Shown here one piece after another: positions 1-60,229 of a stretch of 64,000 nucleotides of DNA (within the stretch, counting starts at the first letter, position 1; each line of letters opens with the position of its first letter). The DNA is taken from contig NZ_JAFRGN010000029.1 of NCBI RefSeq assembly GCF_017433805.1, positions 1 to 64,000 on the forward strand, read 5' to 3'. The stretch is from Butyrivibrio sp. (GTDB lineage Bacteria > Bacillota > Clostridia > Lachnospirales > Lachnospiraceae). The translations under genes and the position numbers were made by a program. A model generated the notes under the pieces. The model made no database searches and was not told the origin of the DNA. It saw nothing but the letters and a program-made list of their open reading frames with translations.

Positions 1-1090
1 ATTATATATAGTTTATATATCATATAGGATAAAATTCAATAGATATCATGCATTTATGATCTGGAAGTTCAGATTTATATCCGATAATGGTAAATAGAAT
101 AATAGCCAGGTATATGATAACTATAAATATTAATTTACATCAATAAATGTAGTGTTATTAATCATTTTTCTTTATTTTGCGTTATTTTGGAATCAGAGGA
201 CTAATTTGTCGTTGCAAAGTTCTAAAAATAGAATTATCAAATTATAAAATATCTATAAAATTCGCTACCAGAGAAGTGCAATTTTAATATAAATATTTTG
301 CAAGTTATAAAAGCGCTTAGTTGAGCCATTTATTGATATCTTTAGATATTTATGATATATAAATAATTAATGTATGCATAATTACTTGCATTTATATAAA
401 AAGCGCAATAAATTTTCATTTTATAATAACTATGATATTTACAGTTTTTATCACTATTTACATACATTATTAATTCTTCTTTTGATATTATATGTTATCT
501 TTTTAAAATATAATATTCATATTAAATTAAATTAACCACAACGGTCAATTTTGACAATATTCTTGATCTCCAGCATCTCAAATATAATAGCTTTTAATAT
601 CTGTCGATTTTATATATTTAAACTTTTTATTTCCTGGCCAATTGATATACAACAATTGCTAGAGTTAATATAATACGGTATTTATCGAGTAAATGTCATA
701 TAGTTATATTTTGATATATTTTTATATATCGTATGTTTCCATATCACTTTTTATAGTTTCTTAATAATTTTTACATTCTTTTAATATTCATAATTCCAAT
801 AAATTCTTCTTTCTAATCCATCAAAATATTATTTTGCAAGAAATATTTCATATTTTTTCCTGGTTACTTTCATAAATAAAAATGATTTATGCTACAATCT
901 GATAAATTAAAGAATTACGTTTATATTCACCTGATCTTTATAATTGCAATCGAAGATAATTTTCTCTTTATACGACGAATAAGGTTGTTTTTATATATAA
1001 ATAAAACTACAATTTGTTATTAATTAATACCTGAGAGAAACTCAGTATTTATCTATATTTGTGTATTTATGAGTGACTAAAATGGGATTA
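1..1090. other. AT-rich gene-free region left of the replication origin
   Basis: No open reading frame with a plausible ribosome-binding site lies here on either strand, and no tRNA or rRNA pattern is visible. The base composition is far more AT-rich than the genes to the right, with many TATAT and TTTTA runs. A DnaA-box-like nonamer TTAACCACA (one mismatch to TTATCCACA) is at 532-540, and a short palindrome GTCAATTTTGAC at 543-554. Next to iterons and a rep gene, the natural reading is the duplex-unwinding part of an origin, but this is inferred from position and composition only. Confidence 0.55.
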
Positions 1091-2068
1091 TATAGTTATA
1101 AAAAAGGGAATGAGGGGTAAGATTAATTGGGATAAAAGGTATACAAAAAGGGCTTATCTATGAAACACCAAAAGTAACTATTTTAGGGACTAAAGGAGAT
1201 ACTTTAAGGCGCGAAAGGTGACATAAAAGGGAATTAAAATCAAAAGGTGAACAAAAAGGGAACCGAGTGTGAACAAAAAGGGCATGAAAAATAGGTGCAT
1301 TATAAGGCCTATATCCTTAATATATGTAAAGAGCATAAGAGAATATCCATAAACAGGAGAAAATATAGAAATTTGGCCTATATTTTCTTTTTTTATGATA
1401 TTTCTTAAATAGTCCGGGCACAAAAAATATAATTAAATATATAAAAAGAAAAAAGAATATTTAGATTAATGAACTGGATGATAAGATCTGATGTCTAATT
1501 ATAGAGAAACCATTAAGAGATCATTAAAGGTGACTAAAAAGGGAATGGTGATATAAAAGGGCGCAGCCAAATTATTAACCATGGCAGAATACAAGAAAAG
1601 CCTTATTCTAGACATTTTAAGCCCATTATATTTATATAAAGGTGAACAAAAAGGGAACGTATAAGTGACCAAAAAGGGAATATAAGGTATTATAGCTGCG
1701 GATAAACGCTGGAAATAAATTTTTACGAGTAAAAGATATAAAAAGGGGTCAAAAAGTGACTAAAAAGGGATTAAAAATGACTATTATAGTCTAACCATAT
1801 TGGTTAAAAGATAGCTAAAGGGGCGTACATTATTCGAAAGGTGCACAAAAAGGGAATATATTTTATCGACCTTAACGGTCAACAATTTGTAGTATTAATA
1901 ATTTGACAAACCCACAAAATATAGGCAAAATTAGCTTGTAAGTGACAAAAAAGGGAATATAATATTATTGAAGTAAATAAAAAGGGAATGTTATTTATTC
2001 TATATGTTTACTAAAGGTGTACAGAAAAGGAATCAGGTTCCTTATTTAAAGGTGTACAAAAAAGGAAT
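1091..2068 (+). repeat. Iteron array (about 16 direct repeats) of the replication origin
   Basis: A roughly 21-bp unit recurs in one orientation, with consensus close to AAGGTGWACAAAAAGGGAAT. Clear copies are at 1135-1155, 1214-1234, 1243-1263, 1265-1285, 1526-1546, 1638-1658, 1661-1681, 1752-1772, 1837-1857, 1938-1958, 1969-1989, 2013-2033 and 2048-2068, with weaker ones at 1091-1111 and 1544-1564. The AAAAAGGGAAT half is best conserved. Spacing is irregular. The last copy ends about 20 bp before the rep start codon, so the array can serve both as the initiator-binding origin and as the operator for rep autoregulation, as is known for Rep_3-family replicons. Confidence 0.9.
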
Positions 2069-2088
2069 TTGATATTTGTGGGGGATTT

Positions 2089-3252
2089 ATGGCAGATAAA
2101 AAAAGAGAACAGTTAATTGTCAGCAGGAGTTATAAGAAGTCCAACGAGCTGATCAATGCAATGGGTAAAGGAACTGCTCTTAGCCAGAAGCTTTTTGCTA
2201 TAGGAATGCAGAACATTACGGTTGATAACACCAATAATGTTGTTGCTACTATATACGGATCTGAACTGCGTAAGATGTTCAAATCTACTTCTGGTTCATT
2301 ATATGAACATATTGAGGCATTATGTGACAGACAGGTTAAGGGTCAGACCATTTTTGACTGGAATCTTCTCATGAAGGATAAGGAAAATGGTAAGATTGAG
2401 GCTCATCAGGTAGTTACAGATGCTTCGTTTAAGGATGGAACGTTAACGCTACGTTATAATAACTCCTTAACTGATAAGATTGTTAACCTGCAGAAGAACT
2501 ATACTGTACTTAGTTTGGCTGACACACTGAGCCTTAAGAGTGTATATTCGCTGCGTTTATATGAGATGCTCAAATCAGCCTATGATTACAAGAAATACTT
2601 GACCAAAGAGCCAGGAGAGCAGGCTTTTGAATATAATCTTACAGAGCTCAAGCTGGAGCTTGGTATTATTACATCTGGTGGTGTTAAAGAAATCAAGAAC
2701 GAGCTTGAAAAAGAGTTGCCAGATTATGACAAGATAGAAGCTCTTGCTGATAAAAATGACCTTAATAAGTACAAGGAGTACAAGATTTTCAATAGAAATG
2801 TACTCAGTAAGGCCAAGGATGAGCTCAATAAGAAAACAAGCCTTGAAGTTGATTATGAGCCTATCAAATGTGGTAGGAAGACTGCTGGAATCAGGTTTTT
2901 TGTTAATCAAAAGGAAAGTGCTGTTCCTAAGGAAAAGATGCCTGTTATTAACAAGGATGAGATTTTAGATGAGCTCATGGATCTTCTTCACGATGATTTC
3001 AAATTCAAGGAGATCAGAGAGATAGCAGAAGCTGCAGAATATGACCTTGAAAAGGTACGGAATGCTTATAATTACATGCTCACGTATGATAAGACAATTG
3101 ATGTTCCAATAGCTTTTATCAAGGAATGTATCAAGAATGAGTATTATGCTAATAAAGCTAAGCCAATGTATCCTAAAAAGAATACATTTAATAGTTTTGA
3201 GCAGAATCAGGACAATTTTGAAGAATTAGAGAAATTATTGCTGGATAACTGA
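2089..3252 (+). CDS. rep: Rep_3-family replication initiator protein
   Basis: This 387-residue protein looks like an iteron-binding initiator of the Rep_3 (RepB/RepE/Pi) family. The N-terminal half has the typical lead-in (LIVSRSYKKSNELINAM, then ALSQKLFAIGM) and a first winged-helix region. Around residues 140-165 comes the family-typical stretch VLSLADTLSLKSVYSLRLYE, followed by a second winged-helix region with a Lys-rich AKDELNKK helix near 245. The last 100 residues are charged and probably a species-specific tail. The start is ATG after GTGGGGGA (2078-2085). The gene sits directly after an array of direct repeats, the expected arrangement for an initiator that binds its own origin and represses itself. 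No parA/parB follows within the window. I infer that this replicon is not the main dnaA-type chromosome. Confidence 0.88.
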   Translation: MADKKREQLIVSRSYKKSNELINAMGKGTALSQKLFAIGMQNITVDNTNNVVATIYGSELRKMFKSTSGSLYEHIEALCDRQVKGQTIFDWNLLMKDKENGKIEAHQVVTDASFKDGTLTLRYNNSLTDKIVNLQKNYTVLSLADTLSLKSVYSLRLYEMLKSAYDYKKYLTKEPGEQAFEYNLTELKLELGIITSGGVKEIKNELEKELPDYDKIEALADKNDLNKYKEYKIFNRNVLSKAKDELNKKTSLEVDYEPIKCGRKTAGIRFFVNQKESAVPKEKMPVINKDEILDELMDLLHDDFKFKEIREIAEAAEYDLEKVRNAYNYMLTYDKTIDVPIAFIKECIKNEYYANKAKPMYPKKNTFNSFEQNQDNFEELEKLLLDN

Positions 3253-3258
3253 TATAGA

Positions 3259-3288
3259 AGCGATATATGTTATATAACATATATCGCT
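3259..3288. repeat. Perfect 30-bp palindrome between rep and the AAA+ ATPase gene
   Basis: The left arm AGCGATATATGTTAT (3259-3273) is the exact reverse complement of the right arm (3274-3288), with no loop. It lies 6 bp after the rep stop and 22 bp before the next start. There is no T-tract beyond CTATTGCTTATT, so it is a poor intrinsic terminator. A dimer-binding site or cruciform is equally plausible. Its 16-bp core (3269-3284) recurs exactly at 5352-5367. Confidence 0.7.
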
Positions 3289-3310
3289 CTATTGCTTATT
3301 AGGAGGACTT

Positions 3311-4615
3311 ATGGAAAGAATAGTATCCAAATTACTGATGTATGGTGATATGCCAGAGGATTCAATACTCATGCAGCTTGCATATGTTTGCAGGGATCTT
3401 CACAGCGGAAATTATAGCAAAGAGGACCTGACAGCGCGTGTTTACAAGCAGATAAAGAGAATATTGGTACTGGGGACATCTTGTGCCTTTGATAAGAATT
3501 TGTGGCATAATTATCTGACTTATCTGCTCATCATGGATGAGAATCCATTCAGTCTGACCTGTGAAAAGGTTGGAAGTAAGAATGGAAGTGTAAATCATTT
3601 TGCCAAGAACGATTTTGCAGCATTCAGACAGCTTTTTGACTATGATTTCAGTGAGCTTGAGAAGGCTTTAGATGTAGATTGTTTCACCTGTATCACTAAT
3701 TATCAGGCCATTGATAAGCCTGAGCTCATGTATAATGGCAATGTTAGTGAGAAAGTAAGAGGACTTAGCGCTGCACTTGAGAATACTGACTCAGTAGAGG
3801 CCTTTTTTGACGAGGTTACATCTTTTTACAAAGATATAGGTGTTGGAGCGTTTGGACTTAACAAGGCCTTCAGAATACATGAAATAGATGGTTCCAGGGT
3901 AGAATTCAATCCTATCAACAATATGGATGCAGTTGTTCTTGATGACCTTGTGGGTTATGAATTACAGAAAAAGAAGCTTATTGCCAATACTAAGGCCTTT
4001 GTTGAAGGTAAAAAAGCAAATAATGTCCTTTTGTTTGGAGACAGTGGAACAGGCAAATCAACCAGCATCAAGGCTATTGTCAACGAGTTCTACAAAGATG
4101 GACTCAGAATGATCGAGATATATAAGCATCAGTTCAGACTTTTATCTCAGCTTATAGCACAGATCAAGAATCGTAATTACAAGTTTATCATCTATATGGA
4201 CGATCTTTCTTTTGAGGAAGATGAATCCGATTACAAGTTCCTCAAGGCAGTAATTGAGGGCGGTGTAGAGACTAAGCCTGACAATATCCTGATCTATGCT
4301 ACATCCAACAGGCGTCATCTGATTAAAGAGACCTGGAGAGACAGGCGAGACGTGGAGCAGGATGGTGATATCCACAGATCCGACACTATGGAAGAAAAGC
4401 TTTCTCTGGCTAATAGATTTGGTGTTACAATCGGGTATTATAAGCCTTCAAGGCAGGAATACTATGATATTGTACTGGAACTTGCACAAAAAGAAGGGCT
4501 CAGCTTTGAAAAGGATGAGCTTTTAAGAGAAGCGGATAGATGGGAACTTAATCATGGTGGTATATCAGGCAGAACAGCAAGACAGTTTGTTAATCACATG
4601 ATTGGTGAGCAGTAA
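3311..4615 (+). CDS. AAA+ ATPase of the DUF815 type
   Basis: This 434-residue protein matches the DUF815 layout of predicted AAA+ ATPases. An N-terminal helical part of about 200 residues has no recognised domain. It is followed by a P-loop GDSGTGKST at residues 243-251, a Walker B-like strand [11 protein letters not shown], and an NR sensor stretch (YATSNRRHL) before a C-terminal helical lid. Strong AGGAGG-type ribosome-binding site just before ATG. It lies 58 bp after rep in the same direction, with a perfect palindrome between them. DUF815 proteins are usually chromosomal and of unknown function. The position next to the initiator makes a role in replication or maintenance of this replicon possible, but nothing in the sequence proves it. 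The C-terminus converges with, and nearly abuts, the next gene on the other strand. Confidence 0.8.
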
Positions 4616-53061: not shown

Positions 53062-53871
53062 ATGATCGCACAGTATTTTGTTGAGTTTATTTTATATAGT
53101 TTTCTAGGCTGGGTTTGGGAATCAATATATTGTTCGGCAAAAGAGAAAAAGTGGGCGGACAGAGGATTTCTTTTTGGCCCTGTATGTCCCATATATGGAA
53201 GCTGTGTTGTAGCTACATCAGCTCTTTTCAGTATGTTTGACTTCTTATCATCACCAGATTTCCCTGTTTGGGGAATATTCATTATTTGTTATATCGGAAG
53301 CGCTATTGCTGAATACGGTACATCATGGGTTTTGGAAAAGAGATTCCATGCTAGATGGTGGGACTACAGTAATGTGCCACTTAACATCAATGGCAGAATC
53401 TGCGTTCCAGTTAGTATCGCTTTTGGAGCTGCTGGCGTTTTGATAGTTAAATATCTGATTCCTTTTATCGAGGGAATGCATTCAGCAGTACCTATGATTG
53501 TTTATGAGATTCTTGCAATAACATTTGCTATGATATTTGGCGCGGATTTCGCTCTGACAGAGGCCAGTCTTTCTGCTCTTCTTAAAGATGTTGAGAAGAT
53601 GCATGAAGACTTTAATATCAAAGCTCAGGCTCGATATGAGAAGGTTGTGGATGCACCTAAGAAGATTGAGCAGAAGATCATGGTTGAAAGAGAAATGGCA
53701 GAGCTTAAGTATGATCAGCTGGTAAGCGAATATGCTGAGAGACTCTCTTTTAACCAGAAGAGAATTCTTCTTGGAATAAAGAAGTATACTCCGAAGGTTG
53801 AGTTCCCCAAGCAGGTACACCTTACTAATGAGCTTCGCGAGCGCGTAAGAGAGCTGGGTAAGAGGAAATAA
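53062..53871 (+). CDS. Putative ABC-transporter type IV membrane protein (PF06541)
   Basis: This 269-residue protein has four to five membrane segments in its first 160 residues with the family motif LYSFLGWVWESIYCSAKEKKWADRGFLFGPVCPIYG, which contains the GWxxE and GFLxGPxCPIYG elements. The last 100 residues form a charged coiled-coil tail (KDVEKMHEDFNIKAQARYEKVV...). PF06541 was named for a supposed ABC-transporter role, but no ATPase is next to it here. AGGAGG precedes the ATG. Function unknown. Confidence 0.85.
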   Translation: MIAQYFVEFILYSFLGWVWESIYCSAKEKKWADRGFLFGPVCPIYGSCVVATSALFSMFDFLSSPDFPVWGIFIICYIGSAIAEYGTSWVLEKRFHARWWDYSNVPLNINGRICVPVSIAFGAAGVLIVKYLIPFIEGMHSAVPMIVYEILAITFAMIFGADFALTEASLSALLKDVEKMHEDFNIKAQARYEKVVDAPKKIEQKIMVEREMAELKYDQLVSEYAERLSFNQKRILLGIKKYTPKVEFPKQVHLTNELRERVRELGKRK

Positions 53872-53941: not shown

Positions 53942-53979
53942 TTGTCAGATTTATAACACGTCCGTATACTTGTATACAA
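53942..53979 (+). promoter_or_regulatory. Promoter overlapped by two palindromes
   Basis: TTGTCA (53942-53947), a 17-bp spacer and TATACT (53965-53970) form a good promoter. TGACAATTGTCA (53936-53947) is a palindrome over the -35, and TTGTATACAA (53970-53979) a palindrome just after the -10. Both are plausible repressor sites. A terminator follows within about 10 bp. Confidence 0.55.
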
Positions 53980-53981
53980 AC

Positions 53982-54025
53982 AAAGGCGTTTTGATTCACT
54001 CAGTGTTTCAGAGCGCCTTTTCTTT
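53982..54025 (+). terminator. First terminator in the leader of the ATP-grasp operon
   Basis: AAAGGCG (53982-53988) pairs with CGCCTTT around a loop containing a smaller ACTCAGTGT structure, followed by TCTTTTTT. With the promoter just upstream it would give a transcript of only about 50 nt. Confidence 0.7.
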
Positions 54026-54059
54026 TTTCATTTTTTTCATATAAAGGGTGCATGGGGAC

Positions 54060-54097
54060 AATGGCGTTTCGGTTTTTTCCGAAGCGCCATTTTTGCA
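54060..54097 (+). terminator. Second terminator in the leader of the ATP-grasp operon
   Basis: AATGGCGTTTCGG pairs with CCGAAGCGCCATT (one bulge on each side compensating), around TTTTTT, followed by TTTG. It lies 25 bp before the first gene, and there is no obvious promoter between it and the start codon. Confidence 0.72.
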
Positions 54098-54121
54098 TCT
54101 GGGGAAGGCGATAAGAAAGGT

Positions 54122-54682
54122 ATGATACATTTTCCACGGATAGGAATGAGGATAATCAAATCAGCACTGGGAGTGCTGATCTGCTTTACAATCTATTTTC
54201 TTAGAGGTAAGCAGGGAACACCGTTCTATTCGGCGCTGGCGGTGTTGTGGTGTATACAGAACCACACCAGCAATACTGTAGGGAACGCTCTGCAGCGCAC
54301 TGTAGGCACTTTTATTGGTGCAGTTTTTGGACTTATCTATATTCTCGTCAAATTACATCTTCTTATTATAGGAGACAGCTATCTGCATTACGCGATCATA
54401 TCCGTAACGCTTATACCGCTTATCTATTCTACTGTAGTGATCGATCAGAAAAAGGCATCGTATTTTTCCTGTGTTGTGTTCCTCAGTATCGTCGTCAATC
54501 ATCTTATGGATGAAAATCCATATTTATTTGTACTTAACAGATCGCTTGATACGCTCATTGGCATATTTGTGGGGCTTGTGCTAAACGCGGATCTTATTTA
54601 TAGCGATATGCGGTCTGATAATCAGGATAATGGATCTAGTATTTTATTAGGGGAACAGAAGGGAAGGAGAACAAAAGCATGA
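54122..54682 (+). CDS. FUSC/aromatic-acid-exporter-type small membrane protein
   Basis: This 186-residue protein has about five hydrophobic segments and matches the N-terminal membrane part of FUSC/ArAE exporters (GMRIIKSALGVLICFTIYFL and QRTVGTFIGAVFGLIYIL). It lacks the long cytoplasmic half, so it is a short form. The start is uncertain: AAAGG lies right against ATG 54122, and a second ATG at 54146 also has purine-rich sequence upstream. Its stop overlaps the ATP-grasp gene by 4 bp, so it belongs to that operon and might export its product. Confidence 0.75.
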   Translation: MIHFPRIGMRIIKSALGVLICFTIYFLRGKQGTPFYSALAVLWCIQNHTSNTVGNALQRTVGTFIGAVFGLIYILVKLHLLIIGDSYLHYAIISVTLIPLIYSTVVIDQKKASYFSCVVFLSIVVNHLMDENPYLFVLNRSLDTLIGIFVGLVLNADLIYSDMRSDNQDNGSSILLGEQKGRRTKA

Positions 54683-56037
54683 CAACCTATACGGATATTT
54701 TCAGTAAAAAAGAGCGGGTTGAGGATATGGAGCTGTATGCTGGTGCTGGGGATGTCAATGAGTTACTGGCCAGGTACGGCGTAAAATTTGGAATTTATAA
54801 GAACAATGAATTTAAGGAACAGCTCTTTCCTTTTGATATGATTCCGAGAGTAATTGATGGTAAAGAGTTCAGCTATCTTGAAAAGGGCCTGAAACAGAGG
54901 GTTATGGCGTTGAATCTTTTTATCAAAGACATATATGGGGATAAGAAGATTGTAAAAGATGGGGTTGTTCCAGAGGAATTTATCTATGCTGGAAGTGGCT
55001 ATCTGTCTCAGTGCGAAGGAATAAAGCCGCCAAAAGATATATATTCCCATATATCCGGAATCGATCTTGTACAGGGCAAAAATGGAGAGTGGTACATCCT
55101 GGAGGATAATCTCAGAATTCCTTCAGGGGCATCTTATCCGATGATTGCCAGGCAGATATCTAGAAGGAGTTCGCCAGATCTTTTTACAGGCAAACATATA
55201 GAAGATAACAGAAATTATGCGTCTTTACTGAGGCGTACCATGGATCACGTCAATGTTGGTGGTCACACAGTAATTCTCACGCCTGGAAGATATAATGCAG
55301 CATATTTCGAGCACTCCTATCTTGCAGAGAAAACGGGAGCGCACCTGGTTTCAGGAAATGAGCTGATAGTAGAAAATGATCATCTGTATTTCATCGATTA
55401 TTCGGGACGAAAAGAAAAGGTAGGCGCCGTATACAGGCGAATTTCCGATGAATATCTTGATCCAATGAATTTCAATAAAGAGTCTGTTATTGGAATTCCT
55501 CACATTTTTGACATCTACAGAAAAGGAAATGTAGCACTGATAAATGCTCCAGGTAACGGAGTAGCAGATGATAAGGGAATTTACTACTTTGTTCCTAAGA
55601 TGATCAGCTATTATCTGGGAGAAGAGCCAATCCTGAGCAATGCACCTACTTATCTGCCATATTACGAAGAAGATATGAAGTATGTCATGGAGAATTTTGA
55701 CAAGCTTGTGTTAAAAGACGTGGCAGAAGCAGGAGGATATGGCGTTGTCTTTGGAAATAAGATGACTTCTGAGGAAAAGAAAAACTTCAAGGAAATGCTG
55801 CGTAATGAGCCAAGAAGATTCATAGCTCAGGAGGTAATTGATTTCCTGGATATAGACATTATGGAAAAGGGACAGCTCCTTCCAAGAAAAGCAGACCTTA
55901 GAGCATTTGTCCTCATGGCAGATGAGCCAATGGTGTGGAAGAGTGGCCTGACCAGATTTTCCAGAAATCCGGATTCATTCATAGTTAATTCTTCACAGGG
56001 AGGAGGTTTCAAAGACACATGGGTATTATCTCAGTAG
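54679..56037 (+). CDS. Circularly permuted ATP-grasp enzyme
   Basis: This 452-residue protein belongs to the circularly permuted ATP-grasp group (formerly DUF404/DUF407). It has LKQRVMALNLFIKDIYGDKKIVKDGVVPEEFI near 74-105, the ATP-binding segment WYILEDNLRIPSGASYPMIARQ near 139-160, and DKLVLKDVAEAGGYGVVFGN near 343-362. ATP-grasp enzymes join a carboxylate to an amine using ATP. The family occurs with alpha-E and transglutaminase-like proteins in an operon predicted to make or modify peptides. AAGGAG lies before the ATG. It overlaps both neighbours. Confidence 0.9.
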   Translation: MTTYTDIFSKKERVEDMELYAGAGDVNELLARYGVKFGIYKNNEFKEQLFPFDMIPRVIDGKEFSYLEKGLKQRVMALNLFIKDIYGDKKIVKDGVVPEEFIYAGSGYLSQCEGIKPPKDIYSHISGIDLVQGKNGEWYILEDNLRIPSGASYPMIARQISRRSSPDLFTGKHIEDNRNYASLLRRTMDHVNVGGHTVILTPGRYNAAYFEHSYLAEKTGAHLVSGNELIVENDHLYFIDYSGRKEKVGAVYRRISDEYLDPMNFNKESVIGIPHIFDIYRKGNVALINAPGNGVADDKGIYYFVPKMISYYLGEEPILSNAPTYLPYYEEDMKYVMENFDKLVLKDVAEAGGYGVVFGNKMTSEEKKNFKEMLRNEPRRFIAQEVIDFLDIDIMEKGQLLPRKADLRAFVLMADEPMVWKSGLTRFSRNPDSFIVNSSQGGGFKDTWVLSQ

Positions 56038-56693
56038 AAAACACCGACAGATTATATTGGCTAGGAAGATATACAGAACGCGTTTATTCAACGATCAAGA
56101 TCTTTGAGACGAGATTCGACTCTATGATAGACGTGGATGAAATGGAATATTCTGAGTTTTGTAAGAGTCAGGACATTCCTAATGTGTACAAATCAAGGGA
56201 GGATTTCAGTAGAAGATACTGTTTTTCCCTGGAGGATGAGAACTCTATTTTTTCCAATCTCATGAGAGCTTATGATAATGCGATAGTTTTGAGGGAAGAA
56301 ATAGGTAGTGACACGCTTTCATACATACAGCTTGCAATATATGCCATGAATCAGGCAGCGATTTCAAGAGCGCCCCTTATAGGCCTACAGAAGGTTACAG
56401 ATAATCTGGCAGCTTTCTGGGGAATGGCAGACGATGACATTGATGAATCTCAGATAAGAAACATGATAAAAGTAGGCAAGCTGGTTGAGAGAATCGATCT
56501 GTATGCCCGTCTCAAGGAGCCACCAGAGCGGATCAGAAGAGAAGCCAGAAGGCTTACTAACAGAATAGATAAGAGCACAATGAGATACAGCCACAAGACA
56601 CTGGCCCATGTAAATTATCTTGTACAGCTGGATGAGGTACCTTATGAGACCCTTATCGAATCTGTAGAGAAATTGGTAGGTGATAATTTGTGA
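56019..56693 (+). CDS. Alpha-E domain protein
   Basis: This 224-residue all-helical protein opens with the alpha-E hallmark ISVENTDRLYWLGRYTERVYSTIKIFE and continues with ALNQA-like helices (YAMNQAAISRAPLI). The alpha-E domain (formerly DUF403) is found almost only beside or fused to circularly permuted ATP-grasp enzymes. Its biochemical role is not known. It overlaps the ATP-grasp gene by 19 bp and the next gene by 4 bp, pointing to fixed stoichiometry. Confidence 0.9.
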   Translation: MGIISVENTDRLYWLGRYTERVYSTIKIFETRFDSMIDVDEMEYSEFCKSQDIPNVYKSREDFSRRYCFSLEDENSIFSNLMRAYDNAIVLREEIGSDTLSYIQLAIYAMNQAAISRAPLIGLQKVTDNLAAFWGMADDDIDESQIRNMIKVGKLVERIDLYARLKEPPERIRREARRLTNRIDKSTMRYSHKTLAHVNYLVQLDEVPYETLIESVEKLVGDNL

Positions 56694-57484
56694 AAAAACT
56701 CAAATTTGGGTATCACATGAAGCTGTCTTTTAGCGGAGCAGTTAATAATCACCGCTTCTCGCTAAAATGTATTCCGCATGATACAGATATGCAGCAGATA
56801 AAAGAGCTGTCTGTATCTGTATACCCAGATCATATAATAAGTGAAAACACAGATTCATACGGCAACATAACACTCTTTGGATACACAAATGAATATCACA
56901 ACAGCTTTGGTTTTGATGTGACTGGGATTGCCACAACAGGACTGGCTGATAGTGAGAAATCTCAGGAACTGCATAAAGTCGGTATGTACAGATATCACAC
57001 ACCTATAACAAGACCTGGCGATAACATTCGTTATTTTTATTCCGGTCTGCAGTTATCTGAATTAAAGAGTACCAGAGAAAAGGCCCTGCGCATAATGGAG
57101 GAACTATATAGTTCTTTTCAATATGGCCAGGGCTATACGTGTATGGAAACTACTGCAGAGCAGGCACTATCAGGAGGGCAGGGGGTATGCCAGGACTACG
57201 CTCACATAATGCTGTCGCTGTGCAGAATGGAAACAATCCCCTGCAGATACGTAGCTGGAATGATGATGGGAGAAGGCAGTTCCCACGCCTGGGTTGAAGT
57301 ATGGGATGAAGAAAAATGGATTGGCTATGATCCAACCAACAAGAGGCTTGTGGATGATGATTACATCAAGATTTCCAACGGAAGAGATTCAGCTGATTGC
57401 CTTGTGAATCAGGGGATTTTTACCGGTAATGTGACGCAGACACAGGAAATAAGCGTGATTGTAGAAGAGGTTTTGGATGAGTGA
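56690..57484 (+). CDS. Transglutaminase-like peptidase of the ATP-grasp cluster
   Basis: This 264-residue cytoplasmic protein has an N-terminal beta domain and a transglutaminase-like core with an intact triad: Cys167 in GVCQDYAH, His199 in SHAWVEVW and Asp214 in YDPTN. In ATP-grasp/alpha-E clusters such proteins are predicted to act as peptidases or amide-exchange enzymes. It starts with GTG behind GGTAGG, overlapping the alpha-E gene by 4 bp. The stop overlaps the next gene by 8 bp. Confidence 0.88.
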   Translation: MKKLKFGYHMKLSFSGAVNNHRFSLKCIPHDTDMQQIKELSVSVYPDHIISENTDSYGNITLFGYTNEYHNSFGFDVTGIATTGLADSEKSQELHKVGMYRYHTPITRPGDNIRYFYSGLQLSELKSTREKALRIMEELYSSFQYGQGYTCMETTAEQALSGGQGVCQDYAHIMLSLCRMETIPCRYVAGMMMGEGSSHAWVEVWDEEKWIGYDPTNKRLVDDDYIKISNGRDSADCLVNQGIFTGNVTQTQEISVIVEEVLDE

Positions 57485-58454
57485 GTTGATTGAGTCTGTT
57501 GAGGATGTGGTGCGTATACCACTTCCTGTAGACGAAGAATATGTAATAAGAAAGCATAGATTAAAGAGTTCTGATGGCAGTGGGCAAAAGAGAATCTGCA
57601 TTGTCACTGGAATTCACGGGGATGAGCTTGAAGGCCAATATGTGTGTTTTGAGTTGGCCAGAAGGATCAGAGAAAAAGCTCAGTGTTTATCAGGAATTGT
57701 AGACATTTATCCTGCCATGAATCCCTTTGGTATTGATTCTATCACCAGAGGAATACCAGCCTTTGACCTTGATATGAACAGAATTTTCCCTGGAAACATG
57801 GATGGAGACATGAATGAGTACATGGCTTCAAGGATAGTGGATGAATTGCTGGGAGCGGATCTTGTTATAGATATTCATGCCAGCAATATTTTTTTAACCG
57901 AAATCCCTCAGATCAGGATAAATGAGCTTAACGCAGATACTCTTGTACCTATAGCCCTGCATGCCAACATGGATCTTATATGGGTTCACGGAGCCAGCAC
58001 TGTACTGGAATCTACCCTTGCTTATGCCTTAAATAGCAGAGAGACTAACACGCTTGTTGTTGAAATGGGCGTGGGAATGAGAATCACCAAGGAGTACGGT
58101 GAGCAGTTGACAGATGGTCTTTTCTCATTAATGAAGGAACTGGGAATTTGGACAGGTGAAGCGCCTACAGTCAGAAAGCCTATAGTAGCCTATGATGCAG
58201 AGGGAGAGGACGTGTGCTATCTGAATGCCCCATGCTCTGGAATATATATAAAAGAAAAGCACCATGGCAGCAAAGTGAAATGCGATGAAATCGTAGGAAA
58301 GATCATCAATCCCCTTAGCGGAGAGGTTATGGCAGAAATAAAAGCTCCAGAAGATGGGATGATCTTTACAGTCAGGGAATATCCTGTTGTAGAAGATGGC
58401 TCTCTTATGGGCAGAATCCTCAGGGAAAAAGTATTTATGGAGAACCTTACATGA
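57477..58454 (+). CDS. AstE/aspartoacylase-family zinc deacylase or carboxypeptidase
   Basis: This 325-residue protein belongs to the succinylglutamate desuccinylase/aspartoacylase (M14-like) family, which removes an acyl or amino-acid group by zinc-assisted amide hydrolysis. The zinc ligands are intact: His47 and Glu50 in GIHGDELEG and His134 in VIDIHAS, and NRIFPGN is the substrate-carboxylate arginine motif. A C-terminal beta-barrel of the family type (SGIYIKEKHHGSKV) follows. It overlaps the transglutaminase-like gene by 8 bp and the next gene by 4 bp. Confidence 0.88.
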   Translation: MSELIESVEDVVRIPLPVDEEYVIRKHRLKSSDGSGQKRICIVTGIHGDELEGQYVCFELARRIREKAQCLSGIVDIYPAMNPFGIDSITRGIPAFDLDMNRIFPGNMDGDMNEYMASRIVDELLGADLVIDIHASNIFLTEIPQIRINELNADTLVPIALHANMDLIWVHGASTVLESTLAYALNSRETNTLVVEMGVGMRITKEYGEQLTDGLFSLMKELGIWTGEAPTVRKPIVAYDAEGEDVCYLNAPCSGIYIKEKHHGSKVKCDEIVGKIINPLSGEVMAEIKAPEDGMIFTVREYPVVEDGSLMGRILREKVFMENLT

Positions 58455-59383
58455 CAGAAGAAGTGATATATTCGTTCAAAGGATTATATAGAGACGATTT
58501 CAGGGTAAAGGGATACAAATTCGGAGAAGGTGAAAAGTCAGTCTGTATTCTCGGAAGTTTACGTGGAAATGAATATCAGCAGATTTATGTCTGCAGTCTT
58601 TTGATATCAGAGCTTAAAAAGATCGAGGCTAACGGGCAACTTGTCAAGGGTCATTCGATAATGGTCATTCCCTGCGGAAATCCCTATTCCGTAAATATCA
58701 AGAAACGTTTCTGGAGTATAGATAATACCGATATTAATAGAATGTTTCCCGGATATGATCTGGGTGAGACTACTCAGAGAATTGCAGCTGGAATATTTGA
58801 AAATATAAAAGATTATAAGTACGGAATTCAGTTTGCTTCCTTTTATATGCCAGGCTACTTTGTTCCTCAGGTCAGAATGATGAAAACAGGCAATGAAAAT
58901 GTGGAACTGGCCAGACAATTTGGACTTCCTTTTGTAGTACTTCATAAGCCAAGGCCTTTTGATACGGCTACTTTGAACTACAACTGGCAGATTTGGGAGA
59001 CGGATGCTTTTTCAATTTACACATCTAGCACAGAAAAGATAGATAAGATCAGTGCCAAACAAGGTGTAAATGCAGTTCTTTCTTTTTTGTCCAAGGAAAA
59101 GATCGTAGAGTATCACGGATTTGCCGGATATAAATCCAGAGTGGTAGAGAGTGAGAAGTTTCTGAGCATAAGAGCCAATGAAGCAGGGTTCCTAGAGTCT
59201 CTGGTAAAAGTTGGAGACAACGTAATGAAGGGGCAGGTTCTTGCATATATTACCGATCCCTACACCTCTGAGATATTACAGACGGTCAAGGCTTCACAAG
59301 ATGCAATCGTCGCATTTGAATATGACAGCCCGATTGCATATAAGAATACAGCGTTATTTAAATTGATACCTGGGCGATGGTAA
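58451..59383 (+). CDS. AstE/aspartoacylase-family protein lacking zinc histidines
   Basis: This 310-residue protein is a paralogue of the preceding gene. It keeps the fold markers (GSLRGNEYQQIYVCSLL, NRMFPGYD and a C-terminal barrel with EAGFLESLVKVGDNVMKGQVL). However, the first zinc His is Arg38 (LRGNE in place of IHGDE) and the third ligand is Gln127 (GIQFAS in place of DIHAS). Only Glu41 remains. It is therefore probably not a zinc hydrolase and may be a regulatory or binding subunit paired with the active paralogue. It overlaps the upstream gene by 4 bp. Confidence 0.82.
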   Translation: MTEEVIYSFKGLYRDDFRVKGYKFGEGEKSVCILGSLRGNEYQQIYVCSLLISELKKIEANGQLVKGHSIMVIPCGNPYSVNIKKRFWSIDNTDINRMFPGYDLGETTQRIAAGIFENIKDYKYGIQFASFYMPGYFVPQVRMMKTGNENVELARQFGLPFVVLHKPRPFDTATLNYNWQIWETDAFSIYTSSTEKIDKISAKQGVNAVLSFLSKEKIVEYHGFAGYKSRVVESEKFLSIRANEAGFLESLVKVGDNVMKGQVLAYITDPYTSEILQTVKASQDAIVAFEYDSPIAYKNTALFKLIPGRW

Positions 59384-59428
59384 GATATAGTAAAAGAAAC
59401 AAATATATATAGAAACAGGTACAAATCA

Positions 59429-59890
59429 ATGACGCGTAGAGAAATGGCAATGGCAAATTTCATGAAAGGATATAACTGTTCCCAGTCCATAGTACTGGCA
59501 TTTGCAGATATGCTGCCAGTTGATGAGAAGCAGATATCTATGCTGGCATCTTCATTTGGCGGCGGAATGGGCAGACTTCGTGAAGTATGCGGCTCAGTGA
59601 GTGGAATGTTCATGATAGCAGGTCTTTTATATGGCTATGATGGACCTGAAACAGGCCAGATAAAAGCAGATCATTATGCAAGAATTCAGGAATTGGCACG
59701 CAGATTCGAGGAAAAGCATGGCACGATAGTATGCCGTGAAATGTTGGGACTTAGAGTTCGCCATGACGCGCCAACTCCGGAAGCAAGGACAAGCGAATAT
59801 TATAAAAAGCGCCCCTGCGCTGAGATTATCGGAGATGCGGCAGAAATACTGGAGCAGTATATAGCAGAAAATCCAGTGGCATCTGAGTAA
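59429..59890 (+). CDS. C_GCAxxG_C_C-family protein
   Basis: This 153-residue protein has the four conserved cysteines of the C_GCAxxG_C_C family (Cys17, Cys54 in VCGSVSG, Cys102, Cys130) and the SSFGGGMGRL loop. The family is common in anaerobes, is thought to bind a metal or redox centre, and has no agreed function. It lies 45 bp after the second AstE-like gene and 42 bp before the Nif11-like gene in the same direction, with no terminator visible on either side, so it could be read with the ATP-grasp operon. Confidence 0.87.
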   Translation: MTRREMAMANFMKGYNCSQSIVLAFADMLPVDEKQISMLASSFGGGMGRLREVCGSVSGMFMIAGLLYGYDGPETGQIKADHYARIQELARRFEEKHGTIVCREMLGLRVRHDAPTPEARTSEYYKKRPCAEIIGDAAEILEQYIAENPVASE

Positions 59891-59932
59891 GATTAGACGT
59901 TATATCATTATATATAGAAGGAGTACAGTTGT

Positions 59933-60229
59933 ATGGGAATGAATGAAAAACTTGATGGTTTATTAGAAAAGGCAGCCAAAGACCATGTGCTCAGAGATAA
60001 GCTCCTTAACACGAGAAATTCCGACAATCAGCTTGCGGAGTTTTGTTCTATTGCTAGTGATAATGGATTTCCAATGTCTGTAATGGACATGGTCAATCAA
60101 GGAGAAGAATTCTATGCGGAGATCAAGCGCAGTACCAACGGTGGCGGTGAGAATTCTCCGGATCTTGATTTTCAGAATGATGAATATTCTATCTTTATGA
60201 TGAGATTAGAGGGATTAAAAGACTTGTAA
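59933..60229 (+). CDS. Nif11-leader-like small protein, candidate peptide precursor
   Basis: This 98-residue protein resembles the Nif11-type leader family: LDGLLEKAAKDHVLRDKLLNTR (about 7-28) is the helix found in such leaders, and LAEFCSIASDNGFPMSVMDMV (34-54) matches their GF(x)ΨS-type end. It then runs to a triple glycine at 70-72 and an acidic tail (ENSPDLDFQNDEY...) of 26 residues. Nif11 leaders precede the core of several RiPP types and end in Gly-Gly. AAGGAG lies 9 bp before the ATG. The tail has no Cys, Ser-rich or Thr-rich core, so a lanthipeptide is unlikely. Modification on acidic side chains would suit an ATP-grasp ligase, which is encoded nearby. This is inference. Confidence 0.62.
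   Translation: MGMNEKLDGLLEKAAKDHVLRDKLLNTRNSDNQLAEFCSIASDNGFPMSVMDMVNQGEEFYAEIKRSTNGGGENSPDLDFQNDEYSIFMMRLEGLKDL

Follow-up and report, generated by a model that had tools for sequence, protein, structure and literature searches.

A putative nitrogen-limitation-induced amide-ligase/hydrolase operon with an active-looking and a dead-looking AstE protein in Butyrivibrio and other Clostridia

An operon joining the proteasome-fold protein Anbu with Alpha-E, ATP-grasp and transglutaminase genes was reportedly described by Iyer et al. in 2009. In later papers, tagging and de-tagging are proposed for the Anbu operon, which holds the same ATP-grasp/Alpha-E/transglutaminase trio (PMC6376114, PMC5666114), and the role of the trio is given as unconfirmed as of 2017 (PMC6376114); we found no later solution of it in the literature searched. 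Further papers link these genes to nitrogen: the trio belongs to the NtrC/sigma54 regulon of B. cenocepacia (PMC5491218), nitrate raises the expression of P. putida PP_2685 and PP_2688 relative to ammonium (log2 4.44 and 3.99; PMC8050072), nitrogen-starved cells express Anbu strongly (cited in PMC6376114), and the trio is associated with urea-metabolism domains in marine metagenomes (PMC3597751). Here we analyze an operon built on this known but functionally unsolved trio, as the first-pass annotation had correctly recognized, in a 64,000-nucleotide (nt) stretch of Butyrivibrio sp. DNA (contig NZ_JAFRGN010000029.1, positions 1 to 64,000; hereafter the window). Its conserved module, (FUSC)-ATP-grasp-Alpha-E-transglutaminase-AstE1-AstE2, spans 54122-59383 and is preceded by a leader at 53942-54098, which lies outside the region originally annotated (54122..60229) and proved to be the most informative part of the locus.

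Like the Anbu operon, the locus brings together genes for circularly permuted ATP-grasp, Alpha-E and transglutaminase-fold proteins, whose expression in Proteobacteria is nitrogen-linked (PMC5491218, PMC8050072). It differs in carrying a pair of AstE-family genes, one of them dead-looking in 109/109 copies, together with a FUSC(-HAD) gene, a short form of Alpha-E and an ANTAR-type leader in place of NtrC/sigma54 control. A search for Anbu (PF00227) gave no match at E 0.001 in the window genome, which is 98% complete, and we set the operon apart from the Anbu system because no Anbu gene was detected. The first-pass annotation had regarded the whole as the best candidate for an undescribed system in the window. 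The trio is known; none of the papers found describes the ANTAR-type leader of nitrogen genes, the FUSC-HAD protein at the front or the form with an AstE pair of which one member looks dead. No paper on the AstE-pair form came up in a search that did not cover Iyer et al. 2009, which may mention an AstE pair. We propose, with a probability of about 0.5, that the operon is a horizontally spread, nitrogen-limitation-induced amide-ligase/hydrolase module of gut Clostridia. The five-gene composition, the dead-looking paralogue and the leader held in common with nitrogen-assimilation genes can be demonstrated from sequence, and the chemistry is read from the enzyme families only.

Conservation of the five-gene core was assessed by searching for the ATP-grasp protein in 116 genomes, those of the window and its relatives. 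It was present in 17 of them (the window genome, 15 of the same genus and one of another family), and the order ATP-grasp, Alpha-E, transglutaminase, AstE1, AstE2 was kept in all 16 genus- and order-level loci besides the window. When an AstE2 alignment was scanned against one genome per species, at least 573 relatives were obtained; among the best 80 of these, an AstE1 match lay upstream of AstE2 in 80/80, incomplete in some and about 4 kb off in L050. These 16 and 80 loci and 20 class-level ones make up a set of 116 loci, including at least two duplicates (L035, L039); they were found through AstE2 or ATP-grasp, so that the presence of those two genes is by selection. All five genes occur in 98 of the 116, the other 18 comprising nine AstE pairs alone, five with the transglutaminase gene, two that retain a remnant of ATP-grasp, one trio lacking the pair and one locus cut at AstE1; the flanks vary between loci in many cases. 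The transglutaminase Cys/His/Asp triad is present in 97/97 sequences (best PDB relative 3isr), and the Alpha-E motif retains R17 in 93/93, E20 in 91/93 and R21 in 93/93. The only PDB relative found for ATP-grasp was 3n6x, and none was found for Alpha-E below E 0.4. Several irregular loci were also observed. In L057, L085 and L043, the leader and AstE2 remain but the ligase is wholly or mostly missing together with the start of AstE1, apparently through internal deletions. About 4 kb of other open reading frames (ORFs) separates AstE1 from AstE2 in a Treponema-labelled metagenome-assembled genome (MAG; L050, 3825-7929), and the AstE2 match lies in two pieces in the draft genome of Butyrivibrio fibrisolvens 16/4 (L107, 8001-8920).

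The two AstE proteins were compared in an alignment of 103 AstE1 and 109 AstE2 sequences, in which the ligand roles of the positions rest on solved relatives and established family knowledge. The zinc ligands and catalytic Glu (H47, E50, H134, E196) are intact in 103/103 AstE1 proteins. The matching positions of AstE2 hold R (109), E (109), A/T/S/V (78/25/5/1) and Y/F (108/1): the ligand Glu is kept in 109/109, and no copy retains either His or the catalytic Glu. Of the Asp-x-Asn-Arg motif, Asp and Asn occur in all sequences and Arg in 109/109 AstE2 (D94, N96, R97) and 102/103 AstE1 proteins. Because AstE1 is intact and AstE2 altered throughout, AstE1/AstE2 is, as judged from the residues, a fixed active-looking/dead-looking pair; the inactive look previously ascribed to one AstE protein in the window is shared by every AstE2 copy counted. 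AstE2 does not appear to be decaying, since its median pairwise identity over 76 loci (0.60) is near that of AstE1 (0.64) and its nonsynonymous divergence (dN) to three near relatives is lower (0.10-0.14 versus 0.15-0.18); synonymous divergence (dS) is saturated for both proteins there and in 10 of the 17 pairs tested, making dN/dS indicative only.

The best PDB relatives of AstE1 are 3cdx, 2qj8 and 3na6, followed by DoeB (6twm/6twl). AstE1 resembles the DoeB/AstE/AspA zinc amidohydrolases (6twm, 3cdx, 2qj8) in retaining both His and both Glu residues, one Glu a ligand and the other catalytic, but it is coupled to a dead-looking paralogue and scores far below the DoeB equivalog cut-off (60.7 versus 402.7 bits). 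Dead paralogues that activate an enzyme are described for the trypanosomatid S-adenosylmethionine decarboxylase (AdoMetDC) prozyme (PMC5201418) and deoxyhypusine synthase (PMC3663545). The likeness is a dead paralogue kept alongside an active enzyme; those systems belong to other enzyme families, and activation of AstE1 by AstE2 is putative. We consider it likely that AstE1 and AstE2 form a complex. A clade of stand-alone AstE1-AstE2 pairs, with neither ligase genes nor the leader element, was also noted (L145-L149); in one of these, L146, the pair lies behind an SBP3-type amino-acid ATP-binding cassette (ABC) importer, a PucR regulator and a class-III aminotransferase.

Over 76 loci, the five core proteins show correlated pairwise distances (Spearman 0.71-0.83, compared with at most 0.25 in permutations), from which we conclude that the five proteins have, by this sequence measure, one joint history. 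Among 393 Clostridia genomes, AstE2 occurs in 20, full circularly permuted ATP-grasp in 16 and both in 15 (E < 1e-100 each). The five AstE2 genomes lacking the ligase form one clade (Shimodaira-Hasegawa-like approximate likelihood ratio test 96, quick tree), and the one ligase genome without AstE2 (L150) holds the trio only. In the same tree, whose deep part is unsure owing to several long branches, the genus of the window falls in three distant places and loci from Spirochaete-labelled MAGs, whose labels can be wrong, nest inside Bacillota; both observations indicate horizontal spread of the operon. Plasmid carriage was considered and rejected, with a single weak plasmid match (26.9% identity). 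Phage carriage was likewise set aside: four unannotated 'Bacteriophage sp.' records matched, both stretches examined hold the AstE pair without ligase genes, and the records may be bacterial contigs. In L027 (323-2871), two related ORFs adjoin the operon, one of them tyrosine recombinase-like by reading, hinting at mobility.

Comparison of the upstream DNA revealed ACAAAGGCGTTYTG, a sequence that heads a terminator-like hairpin directly behind a promoter-like -10 box; similar boxes were seen by eye at about equal distance from the element in many relatives. In the window, a mini-hairpin with stem AAAC/GUUU and loop AAAGGC (A at position 1, G at position 4) at 53978-53991 shares bases with the terminator, which has its arms between 53982 and 54020 and a T-run behind them. 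We applied a strict rule, allowing no more than 3 mismatches and requiring 6/7 stem pairs and a T-rich tail, to leaders of about 470 nt. Of 97 operon leaders, 64 carry the element under this rule, and 52 do so with 2 mismatches or fewer; the 11 matches in 20 arbitrary stretches (720 kb, both strands) all have 3. The 13 pairs of the terminator helix are 97.3% paired in 37 non-redundant leaders, changes on both sides occur in 10 of the 13 pairs, and 68 cells are changed on both sides versus 15.9 in shuffles; when the partner is slid, pairing falls to 35-64%. The first seven helix pairs were part of the selection, and the other six, which were not, carry 48 of these 68 cells. The covariance model R1 matched the window twice, at G000:C25:53960-54027 (56.1 bits, this sequence itself being in the model) and at G000:C25:54038-54098 (34.5 bits). 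At E <=0.05, 72 of 94 loci contain a match at some position (34 of these loci were in the model), and matches occurred in 6 of 20 class-level loci (two in the model) versus 1 of 20 arbitrary stretches. We interpret the leader as acting as RNA and reject a DNA operator, because the loop is variable and the changes are compensatory. A riboswitch or T-box was also rejected: at gathering thresholds, no Rfam family was found near the operon in 17 loci. Farther off, a T-box lies about 3 kb beyond the operon in L157 and two tRNAs were matched in L155; the window has one sub-threshold Rfam match elsewhere (53373-53503, minus strand).

The loop signature corresponds to that of ANTAR targets, characterized in PMC3369931 by two hairpins and by a hexanucleotide loop carrying A at position 1 and G at position 4. 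As in ANTAR (EutV/NasR/AmiR type) antitermination regulons, an A1/G4 hexaloop overlaps a terminator, nitrogen genes lie behind it, and one ANTAR gene is present in 11 of 12 genomes; here, however, mostly a single hairpin is found outside Butyrivibrio, and the hairpin is carried on the terminator's own 5' arm. Mini-hairpin and terminator are mutually exclusive owing to their common bases. A mini-hairpin with a stem of at least 4 and the A/G loop occurs in 44 of the 64 leaders, the window having two. On the alignment it shows 11 both-side-changed cells versus 5.6 in shuffles, and its covariation score also stands out. Tandem hairpins are seen in the window and most Butyrivibrio (16/64 leaders overall versus 6.7 expected from shuffles), and a second hairpin lies upstream in 6/64 (3.2 expected). 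The ANTAR gene of the window genome (G000:C7:19668-19823) is located behind glnA, and in 5/5 genomes checked the gene directly follows a type I glutamine synthetase gene, for which GlnA is the best NCBIfam match in 5/5, over the cut-off in 3. The ANTAR protein, whose binding is predicted, is somewhat more likely than otherwise to be the regulator of the operon; NitR is a precedent in Clostridium.

A regulon search with the covariance model in 12 genomes, with the genes behind the element inspected for 42 of 61 rows, placed the leader element at the operon and at several other kinds of gene. Seven of the 26 best rows (E < 0.002) lie at the ATP-grasp/AstE operon itself, and twelve of the other 19 stand before nitrogen- or amino-acid-related genes, encoding four GlnQ-like ABC ATPases (nearest GlnQ, below its cut-off; one inside the operon's own cluster in G423), four Na/Ala symporters, two AsnB proteins, one Amt and one glutamine synthetase III. 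Three best rows precede NAD synthase, RelA_SpoT and peptidase C26, families that also recur beside the operon, and one precedes a PPDK_N protein. Weaker rows add three ammonium transporters (one PII-fused), LL-diaminopimelate aminotransferase and citrate synthase, as well as LysR, Lrp, EutA (far downstream) and others. The PII-fused ammonium transporter behind the leader element is in L266 (G055:C2:2247000-2249500). Because nitrogen-assimilation genes share the leader, the operon is very probably under nitrogen control as well, a prediction from sequence that agrees with the two independent Proteobacteria reports on the trio (PMC5491218, PMC8050072) and with its link to urea-metabolism domains (PMC3597751).

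Several observations weigh against this interpretation. The element is absent from 33 of 97 operon leaders by the strict rule, and in 22 of 94 loci the covariance model matches nothing. A stem of at least 4 carrying the A/G loop is missing from 20 of the 64 leaders, mini-hairpin pairing on the alignment is not above shuffles (83.8% versus 82.8%), and outside Butyrivibrio there is mostly one hairpin, whereas ANTAR targets are described as having two (PMC3369931). The regulon list is partial, with only 150 of the 670-3829 candidates per genome scored, and by reading three of the 19 best rows outside the operon resemble ordinary terminators. Two operon genomes, G284 and G239, have no model match, and G284 also lacks an ANTAR gene. 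Finally, in five of the 20 AstE2 genomes among the 393 Clostridia the AstE pair occurs with no ligase genes and hence is not always dependent on them, and the leader element is found in none of these five stand-alone loci.

The features of the locus are collected in Table 1. The eight ORFs of the first-pass annotation were confirmed in place and Pfam agreed with the family names, with the Nif11-like protein below cut-off and Alpha-E matching only model positions 7-164 of 294, about half of the model, hence a short form. The tight coupling described there also held, with five rather than six start/stop overlaps: FUSC/ATP-grasp 4 nt, ATP-grasp/Alpha-E 19, Alpha-E/transglutaminase 4, transglutaminase/AstE1 8 and AstE1/AstE2 4. 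The two junctions after AstE2 are gaps of 45 and 42 nt.

Table 1. Predicted features of the operon and its leader in the window
Feature	Position	Strand	Basis
Predicted sigma70-type promoter, TTGTCA / 17 nt / TATACT	53942..53970	+	Inferred by reading the sequence
Leader element 1, ANTAR-type mini-hairpin and overlapping intrinsic terminator	53978..54028	+	Covariance model R1
Leader element 2, second mini-hairpin (loop AAUGGC) nested in second terminator-like hairpin	54055..54098	+	R1 match
FUSC/ArAE-type membrane protein, 186 aa	54122..54682	+	Pfam FUSC_2, 49.7 bits
Circularly permuted ATP-grasp ligase, 452 aa	54679..56037	+	Pfam CP_ATPgrasp_2 (PF14403), 456 bits
Short Alpha-E protein, 224 aa, conserved R..ER motif	56019..56693	+	Pfam PF04168, 70.6 bits versus cut-off 20.8
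Transglutaminase-fold cysteine enzyme, 264 aa, GTG start, triad C167/H199/D214	56690..57484	+	Transglut_core, 78.3 bits
AstE1, active-looking AstE/AspA metallo-amidohydrolase	57477..58454	+	AstE_AspA_cat, 82.3 bits
AstE2, catalytically dead-looking AstE paralogue (pseudoenzyme)	58451..59383	+	AstE_AspA_cat, 41.6 bits
C_GCAxxG_C_C protein	downstream of AstE2		Pfam, 128 bits; outside conserved module
Nif11-like small protein	59933-60229, ~550 nt downstream of AstE2		Below family cut-offs; outside conserved module

A membrane protein at the front of the operon is not peculiar to the window, FUSC being located upstream of ATP-grasp in 10 of the 16 genus- and order-level loci. Across the 116 loci, the accessory genes include FUSC (21), HAD (12), an SBP3 binding protein (16), ABC permease (13) and ABC ATPase (18), cytidylate-kinase-like (12), peptidase C26 (10), RelA_SpoT (13) and NAD synthase (8), and 134 of 137 accessory matches are on the operon strand. 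In 20 control stretches of 18 kb from ten of the genomes, FUSC and HAD were each found once and the other families never; this control is weak, with few stretches at places chosen by us and unequal total lengths (1142 kb of loci versus 360 kb). The SBP3 protein is nearest PEB1a (2v25) and carries an NCBIfam aspartate/glutamate-binding label below its cut-off, and peptidase C26 is nearest gamma-glutamyl-GABA hydrolase, likewise below the cut-off of that family. FUSC is fused to a Cof-type HAD domain in L023, L024, L027, L028, L032, L092 and L098 (Pfam-tested in L024, L028 and L098, the others judged by length and tblastn), whereas the window has FUSC alone.

Since the operon sits behind an apparent nitrogen-limitation RNA switch, it most likely helps the cell to handle amide- or peptide-bound nitrogen. 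With ample nitrogen, the leader would fold into the terminator; under nitrogen limitation, the ANTAR protein encoded beside glnA would bind the hexaloop hairpin, whose bases are shared with the terminator, and the operon would be transcribed. ATP-grasp and Alpha-E would join an amino acid, probably acidic, to an amine by an amide bond, and the transglutaminase-fold enzyme and AstE1 would cut or transfer such bonds, with AstE2, itself non-catalytic, bound to AstE1 in a complex to activate it or to hold the substrate. FUSC(-HAD), joined in some relatives by the PEB1a-like amino-acid importer, may transport the substrate or product, and the net effect would be that amide-bound nitrogen is captured, protected or turned over. 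A ligase-plus-hydrolase amide cycle of this kind is a tentative proposal, somewhat short of even odds. A broader reading is more speculative still: Clostridia and Proteobacteria may independently have placed the trio under their own nitrogen regulators, which would argue that the core makes or turns over an amide-linked nitrogen compound. In Clostridia, Anbu would then have given way to an obligate heteromer of an active and a dead AstE protein, the latter sensing or holding the substrate.

The proposal of the first-pass annotation, maturation of a ribosomally synthesized and post-translationally modified peptide with the Nif11-like protein as precursor, draws on the location of that ORF about 550 nt downstream of AstE2. 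The protein falls under both curated cut-offs (Pfam 21.0 versus 23.8; NCBIfam leader_Nif11 17.9 versus 32.3). Neither it nor the C_GCAxxG protein was found beside the operon in any of the 16 genus- and order-level or 80 wider loci, L032 having one distant C_GCAxxG match (33%) about 5 kb away; the gene-order survey suggested with that annotation upheld the five-gene order in 16/16 loci and the adjacency of these two genes in no relative, leaving a system of the five-gene core plus FUSC. Among 79 genomes of the genus, AstE2 occurs in 21 (in G070 only as pieces) and the Nif11-like gene in 59, where it is widespread at other loci. Seventeen of the 21 also carry the Nif11-like gene, adjacent only in the window, about 57 kb away in G042 and on different contigs in the other co-carriers, and 42 of the 58 same-genus genomes lacking AstE2/operon have it too. 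C_GCAxxG was similarly rejected as an operon member, with a close copy (at least 79% identity, one partial) in 23/79 genomes and operon adjacency only in the window. Reading within 700 nt on either side found no other small, precursor-like ORF shared across relatives, leaving aside the leader hairpin, neighbouring genes and antisense; an ORF of 94-98 aa with no Pfam family follows AstE2 in two near-identical loci only (L024, L025). Because the Nif11-like gene is not conserved with the operon, the outcome that the annotation itself had named as decisive against the idea, we reject it as the substrate and regard this explanation as highly improbable.

Two other explanations were weighed. In amine or amino-acid catabolism through a conjugate, ligation would protect an amine, later steps would act on the conjugate, and AstE1 or the C26 hydrolase would free the amino acid, by analogy with gamma-glutamyl putrescine and glutathionylspermidine. 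The 10 peptidase C26 genes among the 116 loci are always on the operon strand, one such gene in G055 has its own leader element, and the company of the stand-alone pair in L146 fits as well; C26 is nevertheless confined to a minority of loci, and no amine oxidase or aldehyde dehydrogenase is among the recurrent neighbours listed, which makes this explanation rather doubtful. In protein tagging, proteins would receive an amino acid or a short peptide from the ligase during nitrogen stress, a tag that AstE1/AstE2 or the transglutaminase-fold enzyme would later take off. One operon does hold both ligase and hydrolase-like genes, but no candidate protein target recurs next to it, transporter genes recur near it, and AstE-family enzymes of known function use small N-acyl amino acids, the nearest solved relative with a named substrate being DoeB. 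Even with the trio in common with the Anbu operon, for which tagging and de-tagging have been proposed (PMC6376114, PMC5666114), we consider this explanation unlikely.

The broader reading given above, if true, would add a new cycle of amides under nitrogen stress, in which a conserved pseudoenzyme plays a regulatory part. AstE2, with 109/109 copies devoid of catalytic residues, offers a clean case for the study of pseudoenzyme function, and the leader provides a sequence handle for mapping nitrogen regulons in gut and rumen Clostridia. For the trio itself, its occurrence in these bacteria beside a different hydrolase, and probably within a nitrogen regulon, suggests when to look, namely under nitrogen limitation, and what to compare, namely the metabolites of operon-deletion strains.

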